From: a virus
IMG/VR virus record: IMGVR_UViG_3300035698_019258
Coordinates: 1 to 20,776 of that record
Strand: one strand, 5' to 3'
Length of the DNA: 20,776 nucleotides
Below the pieces are notes generated by a model that ran no database searches, was not told the origin of the DNA, and saw only the letters and a program-made list of their open reading frames with translations. A program made the position numbers and the translations under genes. Below are positions 1,135 through 18,863 of the stretch, piece by piece; position 1 is the stretch's first letter, and each line of letters begins with the position of its first letter.

Positions 1135-1917
1135 TTACGCACTATATGCATTCCTGAATTTTATTGTATAACCTGCGTTAAAATTAGATACTGAAAAAGT
1201 TGAAGTGCTGGCTCCTGATGCTAATTGTAAAATCCCAAAACCATCAGTAGTTCTAACACTTTTTATTTGCGAGCCCGCAACAGTTGCATAATTATATTCT
1301 GTCACAAATACGCCATCACCACTATCAACCATTTCAATAAATTTAATTATAACTGTCTGACCAGTTGTTAATGAAGAATTTGGAATTGTGATTTCATTTC
1401 CTAAACCATCACTAATAATAATATCACTAGCCCCACTCGTGACTACTCCTTGAATCTCCTCGATAAAAGTGGTTATATTTCCATCATTAGTTCTATGAGC
1501 TCCGCCATTTGTATAAGTCTGTTGGGTATCATCAAAAAGCACTCCAACCACAGTTTCAAATGTTGCAACATAATCCACAAAATTAGTTCTTCCCCCACTA
1601 TGAGTTTTTTTAACTTCTCTCCCGACACCTAAATAAAATTTATCAGATTCAAAATAAAGTTTTTTAAGTTTGTAAGTTTCCATAAAGTGTCCGCTTAAAG
1701 TTCTATAATCTGTATTTTTATTTGCTCCAAAAAAATGTCCTGTCATCACGATTGTTTTTGGTGATACTCCTCCGCCACTGACAAAGATATGATATCTTTG
1801 ATAATCGATGTTTGTTATTGTATGATTTGAACTGATTGAATCATCGAAGGTATTTGGATTATTTGGAAAATTAAAAGTGTTTGCTGTCCCACTATAATTT
1901 TCTATTTTCATTGTCAT
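1135..1917 (-). CDS. Distal tail protein candidate (Dit-like)
   Basis: This 260-residue protein would sit at the tip of the tail tube, where it would join the tube to the baseplate hub. Evidence is mainly positional: it lies directly after the tape measure and before the hub. The N-terminal half (about residues 1-150) is beta-rich and includes VSPKTIVMTGHFFG and a KLKKLYFESDKFYLGVG stretch, similar in style to the N-terminal ring-forming domain of Dit proteins. The C-terminal half (about 155-260) is rich in Gly, Ser and Thr and looks like a separate jelly-roll or adhesin-type domain. The first ATG (1915-1917) overlaps the tape-measure stop in an ATGA, and a GAGG lies 7 bases upstream, so this start is preferred over the second Met three codons on. 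A tail-tip adhesin is the main alternative. Confidence 0.55.
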   Translation of the reverse strand: MTMKIENYSGTANTFNFPNNPNTFDDSISSNHTITNIDYQRYHIFVSGGGVSPKTIVMTGHFFGANKNTDYRTLSGHFMETYKLKKLYFESDKFYLGVGREVKKTHSGGRTNFVDYVATFETVVGVLFDDTQQTYTNGGAHRTNDGNITTFIEEIQGVVTSGASDIIISDGLGNEITIPNSSLTTGQTVIIKFIEMVDSGDGVFVTEYNYATVAGSQIKSVRTTDGFGILQLASGASTSTFSVSNFNAGYTIKFRNAYSA

Positions 1918-2750
1918 ATTATATCCTCATACGAAAGCGATTCATACTTTCTGTTCATTTTTTTAAAAGGATTCCAGCCAAAAGGTCCCATTCCAAAAAG
2001 TGATGGACTATTAAATCCAAGAACAGGATTATCTCTTCCAAATCCAACTAATCCTGCGGCTCCTAATCCCCCTATTAATGCACCTATCCCAGCGCCCCCT
2101 AGGGCCCCTATTGGTCCGCCGAATGCTCCAATTGCTGCACCAACCCCTGCTCCTGCCAAAGCTCCACCACCTGCTCCAATTAATCCGGCTGTTATCTCTG
2201 GCCCTAATAATTTAACAGCTCCTTTTCCCATTGATCCTACAAGTTTGAATAGCTTGTCTATAATTGGAGATTTTTCTCTTAATTTTTCAAGACCTGATTT
2301 TACATCATTTAATTTTTGAGCAAGTCCTCCCATAGCATCTCTCCATCCTTCTATAACTGTGCTTACAAACCATCCTAAAGGTCCTTCTGCATTTTCAACA
2401 CTATCCACAAAAGAAGAAAAAGTATCTGCTGCAAAATCAAATGCTGGCTTTAATGTTCTCCCTAAAGACCTGCTTAACTCTCCAGTTTTCACTTTTATTT
2501 TAGCCATAGCTCCTGCAACTGCTGGTGATCCTTTTGCTAATGTTGTCATCATTCCTGTGCCAGCCAATCCAAGCCCCACAAAAGCAAGACTCATTTTTCC
2601 CAATAAAGAAGATATCCTTACAAGGTCTCCATGCACTGGTTTACTGCTATCACTAATACTTTTCATTCCGCCTCTGATTCTATTTACACCAGCATCTATT
2701 TGAGCGGTGTTTATTGTTCCAGCGATTTCTAATTTTCCTACTTCTACCAT
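1914..2750 (-). CDS. Short tape measure protein candidate
   Basis: This 278-residue protein follows the frameshifted tail chaperone, the invariable place of the tape measure gene, which sets tail length and is threaded inside the tube. Residues 1-60 are polar and helical (GVNRIRGGMKSISDSS), residues 50-75 hold a hydrophobic segment (LAFVGLGLAGTGMM), the middle is amphipathic helix, and about residues 186-240 form a long Gly/Ala-rich hydrophobic stretch (GAGGGALAGAGVGAAIGAF), as in membrane-active regions of tape measures. It is short for the family: at about 1.5 angstrom per residue it would specify a tail near 40 nm. A GAGGT lies 5 bases before the ATG. The first bases of the gene also contain the TAG that ends the chaperone extension, so the two overlap. 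Confidence 0.65.
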   Translation of the reverse strand: MVEVGKLEIAGTINTAQIDAGVNRIRGGMKSISDSSKPVHGDLVRISSLLGKMSLAFVGLGLAGTGMMTTLAKGSPAVAGAMAKIKVKTGELSRSLGRTLKPAFDFAADTFSSFVDSVENAEGPLGWFVSTVIEGWRDAMGGLAQKLNDVKSGLEKLREKSPIIDKLFKLVGSMGKGAVKLLGPEITAGLIGAGGGALAGAGVGAAIGAFGGPIGALGGAGIGALIGGLGAAGLVGFGRDNPVLGFNSPSLFGMGPFGWNPFKKMNRKYESLSYEDII

Positions 2751-3348
2751 TTTGACCTCATTCTTTCAAGTGCCTCATCAATCTTAGCCTGTCTTATTTG
2801 TTTAGTTTCTACAGCGTTGTGAATCTCAAATATTTCTATTAAGTCTCTTATCTCCATTTTTTTGAATTCATTAGGGCTTATCCCCCTTTGAAAACATTGG
2901 TATTTCATCCAAGAAAGCAGTGCATCTCTATCTTTTATTACGAATCCGTCTTTTGAGGCTGTTCCGATGAGTCTTGAAATTTTTTTTTACCTTTAGACTC
3001 TCCACTGTCTATCTTAGTGATCTCTCTTATAATTTGAGTGAATACAACGGGCTTAAGTTTACTGAGAATTTTCCATCTTTCTTCTTTATTAAGATTTTTC
3101 CACTCTTTCTCTACATTAATTATTTTTTTTATTGTCTCTTTGTCATATGGAACTTCAATAATATTTCTGGTCTTACATTCATTTAATTTGTCAAGTTTTT
3201 GAATAAGTTTTTCATCATTAGTTATTTCTGTATACTCTGAAAGCCATGAATTCTCTTCACCAGCTGTTACAGGTTTATACTTGAATATTTTCCCATCTAT
3301 TGAAAATTCAACCGCGTTCTCGTCAACAAAATCATCTTCATATGCCAT
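2744..3348 (-). CDS. Tail assembly chaperone, frameshifted long form (gpGT-like)
   Basis: This entry is the product of a predicted -1 ribosomal frameshift. The zero frame is read from the ATG at 3346-3348 to the A-run at 2980-2988. After a slip of one base the frame stays open for 78 further codons until TAG at 2744-2746, just inside the tape measure gene. The fusion would have 201 residues. The extension begins ISRLIGTASKDGF and continues through ALLSWMKYQCFQRGI, a helical EFKKMEIRDLIEIFEI part and a charged end ERMRSKW. This copies the lambda G/GT arrangement, in which the short and long chaperones hold the tape measure before the tube polymerises. Without the shift, 2751-2937 would be a gap with no gene. 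A separately started gene from an internal ATG (WMKYQ) is less likely. Confidence 0.8.
2938..3348 (-). CDS. Tail assembly chaperone, short form (gpG-like)
   Basis: The zero-frame product has 136 residues, starting MAYEDDFVDENAVEF, with a beta-rich N-terminus (FSIDGKIFKYKPVTAGEE), a helical middle and a Lys/Ser/Gln-rich tail that ends at TAA 2938-2940. It sits between tail tube and tape measure, the standard place for gpG-type chaperones, and small acidic-then-basic proteins of this size are usual there. I place the start at the ATG 3346-3348, one base after the tail tube stop (TAAAATG junction); the longer frame from 3384 would lie inside the tail tube gene and begins with unlikely residues. 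Sequence identity to known chaperones is not recognisable by eye, so the call rests on position, size and the frameshift signal. Confidence 0.75.
   Translation of the reverse strand: MAYEDDFVDENAVEFSIDGKIFKYKPVTAGEENSWLSEYTEITNDEKLIQKLDKLNECKTRNIIEVPYDKETIKKIINVEKEWKNLNKEERWKILSKLKPVVFTQIIREITKIDSGESKGKKKFQDSSEQPQKTDS
2980..2988 (-). promoter_or_regulatory. Programmed -1 frameshift site (A9 slippery run)
   Basis: On the coding strand nine A residues follow GGT and precede TTTC. In the zero frame they are three AAA codons, so the last seven (2980-2986) form the canonical slippery heptamer A AAA AAA. Eleven bases upstream lies a Shine-Dalgarno-like GGAGAG (2998-3003), placed as in the stimulator of the bacterial dnaX frameshift. 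The -1 frame beyond it is open to 2744 while the zero frame stops after 13 more sense codons. Confidence 0.78.
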
Positions 3349-3349
3349 T

Positions 3350-4315
3350 TTAAAAATATACCGCCAAGCTATCTGTTGCAACAATAGTTGTAGATAATGG
3401 AGCCCCTACAACATCCTGAGTATTTATTCCCTCAAGATTAGTCGGAGCATTGACACTTTCAAGGAAAAGATTTGTAAAAGTAAAAACTACATCATCACTC
3501 GCTCCCCTGATTATCTCTAATTTATTTGTTCCTGAAACATTAACCGCAGCAATCCAATCATCTGTAAATGTAGAATCTTTTTGATTAATATTCAAAGCTA
3601 AATTATAAGATGCTGTCTTTGGAATAGGCTCTCCTATTGTTCTGTTTAAAGAAGAATTTGCATATCTGCTATCCTCTTCATCTATCCCATTGTCTATTGA
3701 TAATTCTCCATTATTGACTTCTACAAATTCGCTACTGCTCCAAGTTAATTTAACATGATGAAATTTAAAGCCGTCATCTGTTGGAGCTGATACACTTGAA
3801 ACGCTTGTTCCTTTTGAAATAGATTTTGCCATACATTCCGCCTCAATTGTTATAAGTCCGTCAGTGTCCCCAGTACCTTTTGAAAATCTTAAAGTCAATC
3901 TTTTGATAACGCATCCTGTCAAAGTTATTACTTCGTTTGTGGACCCTCTTTTAGCCCATTCACATGTAAATGATTTCACTGCATCACTTAAAGAAAAAGT
4001 ATGTGTGTAAGGATCTGCTCCGGTATTTACTACAGAACCATGAGCACAAAACATTAAGAATTTCCAGTTGACAGGTGTGAAATTTAAAGTAAATTTATAT
4101 TGTAATGGTCCTTGCTCTAAATCTTCTATTTCCCTGGTATCTGATCCAGCACTTAATATTTTCTGCCATCCTTGACTAAAATCTGGAGTTAATGTTACAT
4201 TCTTCCCAACAATTTCACCATCATTTGCGATTGTATTTCCGCCTAAAAGTCCATATCCGCCAGCTTCATCTACCCATGCAATCTGCTCTCTTTGGCCTAA
4301 ATACATTTCTACCAT
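3350..4315 (-). CDS. Major tail tube protein
   Basis: This 321-residue protein is predicted to polymerise into the tail tube. It is almost wholly beta-strand in character, with alternating segments such as LQYKFTLNFTPVNWKFLMF, VITLTGCVIKRLTLRFSKG and GLITIEAECMAKSI, and a second half (about 195-321) with ASYNLALNINQKDSTF and DVVFTFTNLFLESV. The motif of a strand pair followed by a TGC/VIKRLTL strand and an IEAECMA strand resembles the tube domain of siphovirus major tail proteins. It lies just before the chaperone pair, as expected. Its ATG overlaps the preceding stop (TAATG), which points to coupled translation. It is somewhat longer than a minimal tube protein, so the C-terminal part may be a surface Ig-like domain. 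Confidence 0.75.
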   Translation of the reverse strand: MVEMYLGQREQIAWVDEAGGYGLLGGNTIANDGEIVGKNVTLTPDFSQGWQKILSAGSDTREIEDLEQGPLQYKFTLNFTPVNWKFLMFCAHGSVVNTGADPYTHTFSLSDAVKSFTCEWAKRGSTNEVITLTGCVIKRLTLRFSKGTGDTDGLITIEAECMAKSISKGTSVSSVSAPTDDGFKFHHVKLTWSSSEFVEVNNGELSIDNGIDEEDSRYANSSLNRTIGEPIPKTASYNLALNINQKDSTFTDDWIAAVNVSGTNKLEIIRGASDDVVFTFTNLFLESVNAPTNLEGINTQDVVGAPLSTTIVATDSLAVYF

Positions 4316-10715: not shown

Positions 10716-10747
10716 TTATAAAGAATATTGCTCAAAAAGAGAATATT
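10716..10747 (-). promoter_or_regulatory. Promoter/operator element, copy 2 (leaderless protease promoter)
   Basis: This element is identical over 32 bases to the copy at 5090-5121. It overlaps the last stop codon bases of the repeat protein gene. The TTTATAA box (10716-10722) is centred 26 bases before the A of the protease ATG at 10693, which is the distance of an archaeal TATA box from its start site. No ribosome binding site lies between them. The inverted AATATT half-sites sit directly upstream of the box, where a regulator or TFB would contact DNA. Confidence 0.7.
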
Positions 10748-13700
10748 ATATTTCTTCTATCTCTAAAATTCTTATTAGCTTTTTATGATCTAATTTAGCA
10801 ACCAAATCAAGATCATCTTCATTCTCTTTTAAGATGCTGGAAGAAATTGAAATATCCTTTGAATCAACTTTATTTAATGAACTTCTTATTATTAATTCTT
10901 CAGAATTTTCTTTGAGAATTGGCGCAATAATATTAAAAGTGTATTCTTTTGATTCTCTCTTTAATCTTCTGCTTGGCAATCTCCCAACCTTTTTTTCAAC
11001 AGATCCAATAATGGCATCAACATTGAATATTTTATCTTGGGTTTTCTTGAGAATAGCATCTATAGTAAAATTCTTGTCTGTGCCCGGAGTAATAAGAATA
11101 GCATCTGCAGTAAGTTGTTTATCTTGAATTTTGCGTAATATTGAATCGGTGATAAATGTTTTTTCTTGAATCTTCTTTAATATTGCATCCATAAAAAAAT
11201 TCTTATCAAATATCTCCCTAATAAATGCATCTGCGGTTAGAGATTTCTCCTGTATCTTTCTCAATAAAGCATCTATAATAAAATCCTTATTATTTGAAAC
11301 TCTTAAAAGCGAATCTACTGTAAAACTTTTATCCTGAATTTTTCTTAAGATAGAATCGATAATGAAATTTTTAGTTTGTTCTTTTTGAAGTATTGCATCA
11401 GCAGTAAAAGTCTTAGTTTGTATTTGCCTTAATAATGAATCAATTGCAAATATTTTTTCAATATTTAATTTTTTCAAGATAGCGTTTATTGTAAATTCTT
11501 TTTCTAACCCGCCAGTAAGTATGGCATCAGCTGTAAAAGTTTTGTCTTGAATTTTCTTTAATAAAGAATCTATTGTAAAAGTTTTGTCTTGGATCTCTCT
11601 CAAAAAAGCATCAAGAATGAAATCCTTAGTAATTCTATTCACTAATCTTGCATCTGCAGTAAATTGTTTATCTTGGACTTTTCTTAAGATTGAATCAGTA
11701 ATGAAAGTTTTTGTATTCACAGCCCTTAAAAAAGCATCAATTGTAAAATCTTTAGTGTCGACTTTTCTTAATAATGAATCTAATGTAAAATTCTTATCTT
11801 GTGTCTTCTTTAGAATTGCATTAGAAGTAAATGTCTTATCTTGAATTTCTCTCAAAAAAGCATCAATAGAAAATCCTTTTGTAAATCTGTTAACAATAAT
11901 TAAATCCCCTGTAAAAGTTTTATCTTGAACTTTTCTTAAAATAGCATCAGATATAAGGGTTTTAGTCTGTTCTTTTTGAAGCAAGGCATCTATAGTAAAA
12001 TTCTTGTCTGTGCCCCCAGTAAGAAATGCGTCAGAAGTGAATGTTTTATCTTGAACTTTTCTAAGTATCGCATCAATAGTAAAATTCTTAGTTCCAGTAG
12101 TTGTAAGAATTGCATCAACAATAAAATCTTTTGTCAATCTTCTAACCAATATAGAATCAATACTGAAATCTTTTATTTGAGATTTTCTCAATAGGGCATC
12201 TATTATAAACTCTTTAGTCTCTTCTTTTCTAAGTAATGCATCTAATATAAAATCTTTAGTTTGTATTTTTCTTAGCAATGCATCAGCTGTGAATGTTTTA
12301 TCCTGAATCTCTCTCAGAAATGCATCAAGAATAAAAGTTTTAGTTATGCTGTTGACTAAGGTTGCATCAGAAGTGAGTGTTTTGTCTTGAACTTCTCTAA
12401 GCAGTGCATCAATTATTAATGTTTTATCATTATCAATTTCTTGCAATAAAGAATCCGCTGTAAGTGTTTTATCATTATCTGCTTTTTTTAAAATTCCATC
12501 TGCAGTAAAAGTTTTATCTCCAGTAGCCACAAGAATAGCATCTGTTGTAAAATTCTTAGTAAATCTGTTTACTATAATTGCATCTGTTGTGAGAGTCTTA
12601 TCATTAGTTTTTCTAAGAAAGGAATCTGCTAAAAAATCTTTTGTTAATCTATTGACTAATCTCGCATCAGTTATGAAAGTCTTATCTCTAATTTCTCTAA
12701 GAATTCCATCAGCAGTAAAAGTTTTATCCTGAACCTTTCTTAATATTGCATCAACACTTAATGTCTTATCGTTGTCAATCTCCTGTAATAATGCATTTGA
12801 AGTAAAAGTTTTATCTACTGTTGAAACTAAGATAGCATCTGCTGTGAAAGTCTTTGTGTCGGTTTGTTGAAGAAAAGAATCAACTGTAAAATCTTTGTCA
12901 TTATCACTTTTTTTTAAAACAGCGTCGATAGTAAGAGTCTTATCTTGAGTGGCCTCTAAAACTGCATCAGAAGTAAATGTTTTATCTTGAGATTTTTGAA
13001 GAAAAGAATCAACTACAAATGTTTTATCATTATCAATTTCTTGCAATAAAGAATCTGTTGTAAAAGTTTTATCATATTCTGTAACTCCACTTATAGTTAA
13101 CTTATTCCACCAAATATTAGGGGGAGATGTTTCATCAGCGAAAAGATAATCTATTTCATCAGAACTATTCCCACTATTAAACATCGCTTCAAGCTGAATA
13201 GCTTTTATATGAATGCTATCTCCACTTGTACCAGTTTTATAACAAGTAGCCTCTAAAGCTGCAAGTTTAGACCAAGTCCATCCACCAGAAGGAGTATTTA
13301 ATGTTATCCAATCATGCCAACCAGTGCTAATAGTTTCTTCTTGTATTGTTCCCAATAATTCCCCTCTCCCGTCAGTGTGAATAGCGATATTGGCAGTTGA
13401 ATCTCCACTCCCACCTCTTCCATTAAATCTTGCCCGAACAGAAGAAGGAGTGGGGTGATTTGAAGAAGATGGCGCATCTGTACCCTCTCCTTTTGTTTCA
13501 TTATTATCAATATCCCCGCTTGTAGTAGTATATGCAATTGTATTGGGATTGCCATCAAAAGCATAAGCCTCATTTGACCATACTCCATCTGGATCAGTTG
13601 CACCAACGTCAGAAGCATCAAAAATAAAATGCCTTGTTGTTTCATTAGCCTCTCCCCCTGAATCATAATTATTGAAATATGCCCACTTTGCTTTTACATC

Positions 13701-14678
13701 CTTGAAAGTTCCTTCTTCTAATAATGTTTCTCCTTCCCAACTACCATCATATTTATCATAAACAATATCATGAGGCGAAAGTATGTGTTGATCCCTTTCA
13801 TAAAAAACATAAATATCTGTTCCATTTGCCACTAAAGAAGGATTTACTCCTACATTGCTATTTGAATAAGTTGTCCAAGCACCTGTCCAGTTTGCAGATT
13901 GTTTAGCAATATTAATTTCAGTATTTGAATCAACGTAAGCTATCCATACATCCTTGTTGCTGTCGACTACAATTGAAGGGTGATTGTCGTGGCCAGCTAA
14001 AACAGAATCATCCACGATTTTTGTAGTAAATGAAGAAGGATCATTTGCATTTCCTATTGCTGCCTTGATAGCGCCATCAGTATTATTCTGCCAAACAATA
14101 ACAGGGACATTTGAAGAATTTATAGCAATACCACAACCATAAGTATGTTTTTGGGTTGAAGATCCTTCAAGTTCTATAGTCTCAGTTTTTGTTTTCCATA
14201 ATGCTCCAATTTTATTAGTATATCTTGTTGATCTGTAAAGTGTTCCTTTTGAACTTTGAAAATTAATCCATGCAATATGAGGTTTATCATTAAAATCAAC
14301 AGCTAATGAAACATAAGCATCTATGGCAGCACCACCATCTTCATCATCTAAAGCTTCTTCATCACCTTGATATAAATCAGTATTAGTATTAAATTGAACA
14401 TACCCTAAAATACTGCCACTGCCATTATCAACCCAATAGCCAATATGAATAATATCATTAGAATCAATTGCAATCCCAACAGCGTCAGTACTTCTAGGCG
14501 GTTTATTTGTGCTATCTTTTTCTGTCCAAGAAGTCCCATCTGATGACTTCCAGACATACATTCGGTCATTAGTATCATCAAGTGTAACTGCATATAATGT
14601 GCCGTTGCTTGTACGGACTACTACTCTTTCACCACACCCGATATGATTAGTATTAGCAATAGTTATTTTTGTTGCCAT
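10746..14678 (-). CDS. Giant repeat fibre/adhesin: propeller-like head plus 49 tandem 14-residue repeats
   Basis: This 1310-residue protein has three parts. Residues about 17-300 hold recurring blade-like segments (AVGIAIDSNDIIHIGYW, VSLAVDFNDKPHIAWI, CGIAINSSNVPVIVWQ, PSIVVDSNKDVWIAYV, PSLVANGTDIYVFYE) as in sialidase-like beta-propellers. Residues about 300-535 look like a jelly-roll or sugar-binding domain. Residues 536-1228 are 49 tandem units with consensus DKTFTIDAILRKVQ; 42 units have 14 residues and 7 have 15, which sums exactly to the 693 residues observed. The last 82 residues continue with degenerate units. Alternating hydrophobic residues suggest a fibrous beta-structure. The gene lies in the portal unit, not with the tail tip genes, so it may be a head fibre, a neck whisker or a tail fibre. 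Host binding is an inference. Confidence 0.8.
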   Translation of the reverse strand: MATKITIANTNHIGCGERVVVRTSNGTLYAVTLDDTNDRMYVWKSSDGTSWTEKDSTNKPPRSTDAVGIAIDSNDIIHIGYWVDNGSGSILGYVQFNTNTDLYQGDEEALDDEDGGAAIDAYVSLAVDFNDKPHIAWINFQSSKGTLYRSTRYTNKIGALWKTKTETIELEGSSTQKHTYGCGIAINSSNVPVIVWQNNTDGAIKAAIGNANDPSSFTTKIVDDSVLAGHDNHPSIVVDSNKDVWIAYVDSNTEINIAKQSANWTGAWTTYSNSNVGVNPSLVANGTDIYVFYERDQHILSPHDIVYDKYDGSWEGETLLEEGTFKDVKAKWAYFNNYDSGGEANETTRHFIFDASDVGATDPDGVWSNEAYAFDGNPNTIAYTTTSGDIDNNETKGEGTDAPSSSNHPTPSSVRARFNGRGGSGDSTANIAIHTDGRGELLGTIQEETISTGWHDWITLNTPSGGWTWSKLAALEATCYKTGTSGDSIHIKAIQLEAMFNSGNSSDEIDYLFADETSPPNIWWNKLTISGVTEYDKTFTTDSLLQEIDNDKTFVVDSFLQKSQDKTFTSDAVLEATQDKTLTIDAVLKKSDNDKDFTVDSFLQQTDTKTFTADAILVSTVDKTFTSNALLQEIDNDKTLSVDAILRKVQDKTFTADGILREIRDKTFITDARLVNRLTKDFLADSFLRKTNDKTLTTDAIIVNRFTKNFTTDAILVATGDKTFTADGILKKADNDKTLTADSLLQEIDNDKTLIIDALLREVQDKTLTSDATLVNSITKTFILDAFLREIQDKTFTADALLRKIQTKDFILDALLRKEETKEFIIDALLRKSQIKDFSIDSILVRRLTKDFIVDAILTTTGTKNFTIDAILRKVQDKTFTSDAFLTGGTDKNFTIDALLQKEQTKTLISDAILRKVQDKTFTGDLIIVNRFTKGFSIDAFLREIQDKTFTSNAILKKTQDKNFTLDSLLRKVDTKDFTIDAFLRAVNTKTFITDSILRKVQDKQFTADARLVNRITKDFILDAFLREIQDKTFTIDSLLKKIQDKTFTADAILTGGLEKEFTINAILKKLNIEKIFAIDSLLRQIQTKTFTADAILQKEQTKNFIIDSILRKIQDKSFTVDSLLRVSNNKDFIIDALLRKIQEKSLTADAFIREIFDKNFFMDAILKKIQEKTFITDSILRKIQDKQLTADAILITPGTDKNFTIDAILKKTQDKIFNVDAIIGSVEKKVGRLPSRRLKRESKEYTFNIIAPILKENSEELIIRSSLNKVDSKDISISSSILKENEDDLDLVAKLDHKKLIRILEIEEI
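10995..13073 (-). repeat. 49-unit in-frame tandem repeat array (42-45 bp units)
   Basis: Tandem units encode K-T-F-x-x-D-A-x-L-x-x-x-x-D with near-invariant Lys, Phe/Leu, Asp/Asn and Leu/Ile positions. Bases differ much more than residues, so the array is old and held by protein selection, while some neighbours (the Q-E-I-D-N and R-K-V-Q-D-K variants) are near copies of each other, which suggests internal duplication. The 15-residue variants mostly end in IDN or ADN. Confidence 0.9.
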
Positions 14679-16156: not shown

Positions 16157-16459
16157 TTAGACTATTACATAATTTATTTTAATTTTTAATTTAGCTCTTA
16201 AAGGTTTCATTGTTGTAATCTTTGGCCTGAATTCAAGCTCAACTTCTTCAGTAGTTTTTGGAGCTATCCTTTCAATAGATTTTTTTAAATTAACACCGCT
16301 CCCCTTAAGTTCTATTTCAATATAAACAAAATATTGTATTGCATTGTGCAAAAAGATAGATTTTTTAGTAACTTCTCCAGCTACAATTTTCTCAAAGACT
16401 ATCTCATCCTTAATCTCTTTCTCTTTTTCCTTATCATAATATATTTTAATCTCTTCCAT
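16157..16459 (-). CDS. Small Ig-like structural protein candidate
   Basis: This 100-residue protein has strands EIVFEKIVAGEVTKKSIFLHN, YFVYIEIELKGSGVNL, TEEVELEFRPKI and LRAKLKIKINYVIV. The order of strands and the 'G-E-V-T-K-K-S-I-F-L-H-N' stretch followed by 'TEEVELEF' look like an Ig-like domain of the type used for surface proteins. It overlaps the portal C-terminus by 14 bases (start 16459, portal stop 16446). Function is not known; a portal- or fibre-associated accessory is inferred from position. Confidence 0.58.
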   Translation of the reverse strand: MEEIKIYYDKEKEKEIKDEIVFEKIVAGEVTKKSIFLHNAIQYFVYIEIELKGSGVNLKKSIERIAPKTTEEVELEFRPKITTMKPLRAKLKIKINYVIV

Positions 16460-18863
16460 CTATTTCATCCTCTAATTTTTTTAATAATGATTCTTTTCTT
16501 TTGAGAACTTCCATCTCTTTCTCTTTTAATTTCTTATCAACTTCATCATTAACTTGTTCCTTGCCAATATTCAGAATAACTGGCCCTGATTGTTTTGGCT
16601 CATCTTCTTCGTCTTTTAATGTAAAATCCATTGAACTTCTGCAATTAACATGTGAGGGTGGTGAATCAAATTCTTGGCCAGTAGTTCGATCCTTAAATTT
16701 CTCATTTAAATCAATTGTTTTTTTATCCAATCTAAGACAAATAGCAGAAGTTCTGTCGTCATGGACAGCTACCCAAGTTTTTGTCATTTTTTCTCCGCTT
16801 TTTTTCATGGCTTGCAATTGTCCTTGATTTTCTGCCCGATTAGATTCAGTTCTTGCTATCATTTCAGCCCGATTTTCTCCAACATTAAAGACTTTGCTGA
16901 CTCTATTTTTTAATTGTGAAATACTCTCGCCATTTATGAATCCCCTTTCTAATTCTTGAGCCAAGTCATTTGATATCTCCTCAGTCATCCCAGCAATATT
17001 TTTATAAGTATAATCCTGTAAGAATTCTATTGCATCTTTATTCAATTCTATATTTCTGTCCAATTCTTTTTCAGATTTTTCCCAGCCTTTTTCAAATAAA
17101 TCTTTTACTACCCCATCACTTAATACCCTTACTCCTTCAAAGCTGATTAATTGTTTTAAGAATTTTATAACATCCTTAACGGCCTTTAATTGTGAAACGT
17201 GATCTTTTCCTTCTTCTTTTTCTAAAAGACCTTTAATTCTTTTCTCATTTTCTTGCATAAGATTGATTACAGCTTTCTCTAATTTGACTTCTGTTTGGTC
17301 TTCTTTTCTTGGAAATAAATAAATTATATCTTTATTTATCTGAGTTTTTTCTTCAATTTGAGATTCTATACTTTTTTTCTCTTTTTCTAAATCTTTTTCT
17401 TTTGGAGATTCTTCTTTATTATCTTCAAACTCTTTTTCCCTTTCACCCATATTAAAAACATTCCCCGTATTAGGCCTAAACTCATTAGGCGGTTTATCGC
17501 CCCAATCAACTTCATCCATTCCTTCTGATTTTCTTATTTCATTTACAGTTCTTAATCCAGTATCAATTTGTTTTTCATAAAGTTCAACTTTTTTAGTTTC
17601 TTCTTCTACATCAAACATTAAAAATCTAAATTTAATTCCTTCATATCCAAACTCGCTAATAACTTCTTTATTGAGATGAAATTCAATCATCCTTAAAATA
17701 GGATTAATCGCTCTTTTTCTAAATATTTGACTTTGCACGATTTGGTTTGCCATACCTTTTGCATCTTCAGTATATCCTAATTCTGTTGGTGTAACTCCAA
17801 AACTAGCCCATACCATTTTGCTAAACCATTTTTGTTGTTCAATTAATTGCAATTCTAAATTAGAAAATTGTATCCTTGTAAAAGTTGGTTTCTTATTTAT
17901 GACAGGAACGTAATGAGGCTTTCTTATCCAATTTCCAGCACTGTCTCTTTCTCTTACTTTTTCATTCCACATATCTTCAAATGCCTTAACACTATCTGAA
18001 TCGCTGTCTTCAAGTCCGAGCACACCCTTTGGCACATTATTGTCCGTGTGATATTTAAGATTGTCTTCTATAGCATAGATTAACATTTGAACTGCATTCG
18101 CTAAATTTTCTATTGGACTTCTTCCATAAATACTATCTGTTCGCGGATTTCTCTCAAACCAGATTACTTCTTTTTTCCCAAAAGGTATTGGTTTGGCTGA
18201 TGATAACCAACCAAATTGAAAATAAGCTGCACGTTCTCTTGCATCAATTGCTTTAATCAATCCGGGAAGCATATTCTCAGGATGTTTATTATTTCCCACT
18301 ATCTCCATGTCGAGCATTAAATCATCTCTATCAGTGAACATACCAAACATATTAGGATTCTTAGTAAAAGTAGCACCATCTTTTGACACAATGCCGACCA
18401 TCTCACTCTTCATATTAAATTGCTTGACTATAACTCCAGAATCAATCTCTAAAATATCACGCACTACTTCCCTTAAAATCTTTTCAAAACTTTCTTTATT
18501 AGTATTTGGATTGTCAAAAAATGTTTCAATATGTTCAATATTTTTTTCTTTTTCCGGTGTAAGCTCTTCTGTTTCATCTTCTGGAACTATCCCCCAAGGC
18601 ACTGCGCTTATTCCGTCTATAATTGTACTTAAACACATTTCAACATAAGGAGTTGATGCCAATCTTCTTATTTCAAGTAAATCAACATTTCTAGGATATC
18701 CGAATGGTGGCTTAAAGAAAAATCTAGTTTGAAAAGCTTTATTTATTTCTCCTCTTGATTCTTCTGTAATCATTCCCACAGGCGGGACAGATTTGGAAGT
18801 TGGTTTAAACCATCCTTTGAAAGTATTCCAAAAGTTTTGTTTTGCTAAGTTTTCTTCTGCCAT
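16446..18863 (-). CDS. Portal protein fused to a MuF-type head morphogenesis domain
   Basis: The 805-residue product combines two functions often encoded separately. Residues about 30-450 are an HK97-type portal: IYGRSPIENLANAVQMLIYAIED, then KGVLGLEDSDSDS, a FSNLELQLIEQQKWFSKMVWASF stretch and GVTPTELGYTEDAKGM. Residues about 450-640 form a Lys/Glu-rich linker. Residues about 655-745 are a MuF domain (ARTESNRAENQGQ near 673, VAVHDDRTSAICLRLD near 700 and PPSHVNCRSSMDF near 738). A C-terminal coiled-coil (KKLKEKEMEVLKRKESLLKKL) ends the protein. The portal is the DNA channel; the MuF domain may add an internal head protein. The frame has an ATG at 18861-18863 with no clear Shine-Dalgarno. Confidence 0.88.
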   Translation of the reverse strand: MAEENLAKQNFWNTFKGWFKPTSKSVPPVGMITEESRGEINKAFQTRFFFKPPFGYPRNVDLLEIRRLASTPYVEMCLSTIIDGISAVPWGIVPEDETEELTPEKEKNIEHIETFFDNPNTNKESFEKILREVVRDILEIDSGVIVKQFNMKSEMVGIVSKDGATFTKNPNMFGMFTDRDDLMLDMEIVGNNKHPENMLPGLIKAIDARERAAYFQFGWLSSAKPIPFGKKEVIWFERNPRTDSIYGRSPIENLANAVQMLIYAIEDNLKYHTDNNVPKGVLGLEDSDSDSVKAFEDMWNEKVRERDSAGNWIRKPHYVPVINKKPTFTRIQFSNLELQLIEQQKWFSKMVWASFGVTPTELGYTEDAKGMANQIVQSQIFRKRAINPILRMIEFHLNKEVISEFGYEGIKFRFLMFDVEEETKKVELYEKQIDTGLRTVNEIRKSEGMDEVDWGDKPPNEFRPNTGNVFNMGEREKEFEDNKEESPKEKDLEKEKKSIESQIEEKTQINKDIIYLFPRKEDQTEVKLEKAVINLMQENEKRIKGLLEKEEGKDHVSQLKAVKDVIKFLKQLISFEGVRVLSDGVVKDLFEKGWEKSEKELDRNIELNKDAIEFLQDYTYKNIAGMTEEISNDLAQELERGFINGESISQLKNRVSKVFNVGENRAEMIARTESNRAENQGQLQAMKKSGEKMTKTWVAVHDDRTSAICLRLDKKTIDLNEKFKDRTTGQEFDSPPSHVNCRSSMDFTLKDEEDEPKQSGPVILNIGKEQVNDEVDKKLKEKEMEVLKRKESLLKKLEDEIDGRD

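Follow-up and report, generated by a model that had tools for sequence, protein, structure and literature searches.

In lambda, the G/GT locus lies between the tail tube and tape measure genes, with the −1 shift placed at a phased heptamer shortly before G ends (PMC5009743). A −1 G/T frameshift has also been proposed in the haloviruses HVTV-1, HCTV-1, HCTV-2, and HCTV-5 (PMC5009743; PMC8211752), the heptamer of HCTV-2 being A_AAA_AAC (PMC5009743), as cited in these reviews. Experiments on archaeal −1 frameshifting are very thin, with one cellular case named and the viral cases being predictions (PMC8211752). That cellular case is fucA of S. solfataricus, where a −1 shift of the archaeal ribosome on an A-rich heptamer was reported (PMC8211752). 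It shares with the locus described here the A-rich slip heptamer, and it differs in coding for a cellular enzyme and in its rare codon and putative stem-loop (PMC8211752).

Our window, that is, the whole 20,776-base stretch of the virus record that was analyzed, carries its structural genes on the minus strand. Between the gene of the major tail tube protein on one side (3350–4315; Pfam Phage_tube_2, E 1.2e-8) and that of a 278-aa tape measure protein on the other (1914–2750; PHROG tape-measure families, best E 2.3e-6), we located G, the zero-frame ORF of the tail assembly chaperone (2938–3348; 136 aa, ATG at 3348, TAA at 2940–2938), and T, its −1-frame extension (2747–2980), all of them on the minus strand. 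The short tape measure suggests a very short tail. Near the end of G, frame 0 reads GGT AAA AAA AAA TTT through an A9 run (2980–2988, minus strand), which contains A_AAA_AAA (2980–2986), the sole correctly phased slippery heptamer in the window. A −1-frame TAA (2989–2987) abuts the heptamer directly on its 5′ side, so the −1 frame opens exactly there; it then runs for 78 codons past the heptamer to a TAG (2746–2744) that overlaps the start of the tape measure gene, four bases past its ATG (2750–2748). This confirms, on the minus strand, the initial annotation, which had described a 78-codon −1 frame beginning at A_AAA_AAA and filling the gap between the chaperone and tape measure genes. The locus is thus like lambda G/GT in its position, in its phased heptamer close to the end of G, and in an extension that reaches the tape measure gene, and unlike it in the slip site, an A9 run with A_AAA_AAA.

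In our view, the locus is very probably a G/GT gene for a tail assembly chaperone whose expression involves a programmed −1 ribosomal frameshift. The majority of ribosomes would terminate at the stop codon of G and release the short product, while a minority would slip back one base, with two tRNA-Lys on A_AAA_AAA (2986–2980), and enter the T frame to yield the predicted GT fusion, a protein of 201 aa whose end coincides with the start of the tape measure gene. If the lambda model applies, the tape measure protein would be coated by many copies of G and few of GT, with T recruiting the tail tube subunit.

The link of G and T to lambda consists of position and fold, without an informative match at the sequence level. 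Family HMM searches with the G and T of the window returned nothing informative, with only weak matches in some family members; sequence and fold searches of the PDB gave nothing significant, and no useful relative was found among annotated phage records. The AlphaFold model of G, a protein that shares 47–57% identity with 14 relatives, has a mean pLDDT of 86, and its best Foldseek match was M1I8W5 (E 2.6e-4, prob 1.00, TM 0.56), the matched proteins being annotated as phage tail assembly chaperones. Among these matches are the chaperones of two Bacillus phages, Gemini (E 2.6e-4) and 019DV002 (E 2.9e-4), both with prob 1.00, and, more weakly, the tail assembly chaperone of Haloarcula hispanica tailed virus 2 (E 0.056). 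As modeled, G folds like known tail assembly chaperones, which points to a putative chaperone function. The model of T is of lower confidence than that of G (pLDDT 74, pTM 0.45).

We collected further sites by scans seeded with major capsid, tail, and G proteins, together with one scan of GTDB genomes, and recovered 33 distinct G/T sites of four G types, the window counted. A phased A_AAA_AAN heptamer is present near the end of G in all 33, within a run of 6–10 A's at the same place, nine being the commonest length. The −1 frame is open for 62–81 codons up to the start of the next gene in every site with enough sequence, L122 being truncated by the end of its contig. Moreover, T has homologs in the relatives and evolves under purifying selection: dN/dS is about 0.08–0.21 in close pairs, and pN is lower than pS in 117 of 120 pairs. 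A conserved phased heptamer, an open −1 frame, and protein-like evolution of that frame amount to more than chance. Since 0 of 33 sites fail when inspected for a missing A run or a broken −1 frame, the earlier proposal of a lambda G/GT-type −1 shift at the A run is well supported.

Two other readings of this arrangement have to be weighed against frameshifting. The true run could be A10 and G-T one continuous ORF, the A9 being an error of homopolymer sequencing or assembly. The window is indeed a single contig, and we found no second contig with the same slip site and exact flanks; the same shift would nevertheless be needed at 33 of 33 sites from many metagenomes. In addition, another A9 exists in this virus group, in the gene of a helix-hairpin-helix protein, where nearly all relatives are in frame, and therefore the contigs are not systematically broken at A9. 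We regard an error of this kind as most unlikely. That second A9 (L041:3475–3483 and relatives) lies in a Lys-rich linker of a small gene of the head region, whose C-terminal domain is, by eye, helix-hairpin-helix-like; in L041 itself the domain lies in the −1 frame after the run, which could be a second frameshift or a homopolymer error.

Alternatively, G and T could be separate proteins, with T started internally or by re-initiation. A zero-frame stop does fall between the body of G and most of T, which makes T resemble a separate ORF to a gene caller. However, the first ATG, GTG, or TTG of the −1 frame comes 78 nt past the heptamer in the window and usually 60–84 nt past it in the relatives, within the conserved domain, while conserved T residues start right at the A run. 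Separate initiation cannot explain the conserved residues that open T, and we find this reading hardly credible at all. The T half of proteins of this type would escape ordinary gene calling.

With the −1 frame evolving as protein, the agent of slippage has to be considered. RNA polymerase could add one A, or drop two, at A9, so that some mRNAs would encode GT in a single frame. The A9 of the window is long enough for this, and most sites are A9–A10. Furthermore, the class-1 sites ending in AAC or AAT invariably have an A as the third base of the codon that precedes the Lys pair (GTA, TTA, ATA, or GAA), and GTA is used there even though it accounts for just 29% of Val codons, a pattern suggestive of selection for run length. 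Given this apparent preference, polymerase slippage may contribute in the A9–A10 members. As the main mechanism it is unlikely: it would call for a homopolymer of about nine or more, present in the window but not kept in relatives with runs of A6, A7 (four sites), and A8, where the phase is kept. The last base of the heptamer also speaks against it. In class-1 A_AAA_AAN sites, C and T at this base are interchangeable for both proteins (Asn in the zero frame, Leu in the −1 frame), and C was found in 9 of 11 class-1 lineages where the codon usage of the two frames would predict 0.64. The lineages are related, so probabilities for this excess are not exact, but with a mean pS of about 0.7 the synonymous sites come close to saturation. 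Finally, two relatives carry a hairpin at the canonical spacing for frameshifting. Because of the A6–A8 relatives, the preference for C, and these hairpins, the comparison of sequences favors ribosomal over transcriptional slippage.

The initial annotation had also read a GGAGAG (2998–3003, minus strand), 11 nt upstream of the heptamer, as a stimulator of the dnaX type. The element is present but weak. Its predicted duplex with the 3′ end of 16S rRNA reaches −6.7 kcal/mol, a strength that about 4% of the positions in G match, and genome-wide 12.5% of positions are predicted to pair at −6 kcal/mol or lower. Against this background of 12.5%, 12 of 21 gene starts of the virus have a predicted pairing of −6 kcal/mol or lower; the virus thus uses SD sequences at its starts, and GGAGAG could act. 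Comparable upstream pairing (−6 kcal/mol or lower) was nevertheless seen in only 5 of 22 sites tested, so we rejected an upstream SD as a conserved stimulator and keep GGAGAG, from its sequence, as a candidate stimulator of the window that would be at most lineage-specific. The likeness to dnaX, which combines A_AAA_AAG with an upstream SD and a downstream hairpin, is limited to the A-rich heptamer and to an SD-like element upstream; unlike dnaX, the SD-like element is not conserved, the window has no hairpin, and the last codon of the heptamer is AAA, AAC, or AAT rather than AAG.

Downstream of the heptamer, we found no structure in the window (z +1.4 to +2.0), and across sites there was only a weak mean tendency toward structure (p 0.05). 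The unstructured downstream region, the poor conservation of the SD-like element, and the position of the zero-frame stop, 39 nt past the heptamer in the window but 0–6 nt past it in most relatives, are points against frameshifting in the window. L041 and L048, on the other hand, carry an 11-bp stem 6 nt 3′ of A_AAA_AAC, a length and spacing found at 0.4% of positions in related contigs. Between the two stems, three base pairs differ by compensatory changes on both sides, and two more by a single change that leaves the pair intact. As the hairpin is present in L041 and L048 only, this covariation comes from one comparison, and a search for further sites of the L041/L048 type found none. We put forward, tentatively and as somewhat less than an even prospect, that −1 ribosomal frameshifting in the chaperone gene is universal in a clade of DPANN tailed viruses and that the helper signal differs by lineage, so that A6–A7 sites can bear a hairpin while A9–A10 sites, whose slip runs overlap or are longer, for the most part go without one. 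If true, viral −1 frameshifting on DPANN ribosomes would for the first time be documented across a lineage and with covariation in its support. The set of 33 sites, two of them with a covarying hairpin, offers ready reporters for slippage by archaeal ribosomes and for the contribution of RNA polymerase.

As to the host, MCP relatives in GTDB genomes came from five bins, two of Woesearchaeota and one each of Nanoarchaeota, an unnamed archaeon, and WOR-3, so that four of the five genome matches are archaeal MAGs and one is WOR-3. When phyla were sampled, matches came from 3 of 371 genomes in the phylum that includes the Woesearchaeota and Nanoarchaeota bins, from 1 of 34 in the other archaeal phylum, and from 1 of 147 in that of WOR-3; all of them belonged to the five bins above, and therefore the rates alone do not discriminate between hosts. 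In the Nanoarchaeota bin, G itself is encoded on a 36-kb contig and has the same A9 site, whereas a gene of the L033 contig gave one weak match, uninformative as to the host, when searched in Nanoarchaeota-type genomes. The related viral contig L139 encodes (1686–4196) a surface-type protein of 836 aa that includes a PGF-pre-PGF domain, the gene being either cargo or host DNA; this domain is known mainly from archaea. The hosts are probably DPANN archaea, as judged from metagenome bins, which can be contaminated. Tailed proviruses of Woesearchaeales have already been reported, in a paper whose text makes no mention of frameshifting (PMC11705971).

An archaeal host, which the initial annotation had raised, is likely, and its remark that few such cases are known in archaea is fair; the window is nevertheless not the first archaeal viral case, as those of the haloviruses were proposed earlier (PMC5009743; PMC8211752). 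Our relatives are like HCTV-2 in having A_AAA_AAC as their main heptamer, and they are unlike the haloviruses, whose hosts are halophiles, in their likely DPANN hosts and in the long A runs in which most sites lie. The set of loci represents well-supported additions, likely in DPANN viruses, to the G/GT kind of frameshift.

Other genes of these viruses deserve a brief mention. In a related contig, the ORF of a putative large terminase (L060:4397–6370) appears by eye to contain an intein-like insertion. In the window, a 1310-aa ORF (10746–14678) consists mostly of short repeats (...DKTFTxDAxLRK...) and is probably a tail fiber or surface protein, and a single 805-aa ORF (16446–18863) fuses the portal protein with a Mu F-like head morphogenesis domain.
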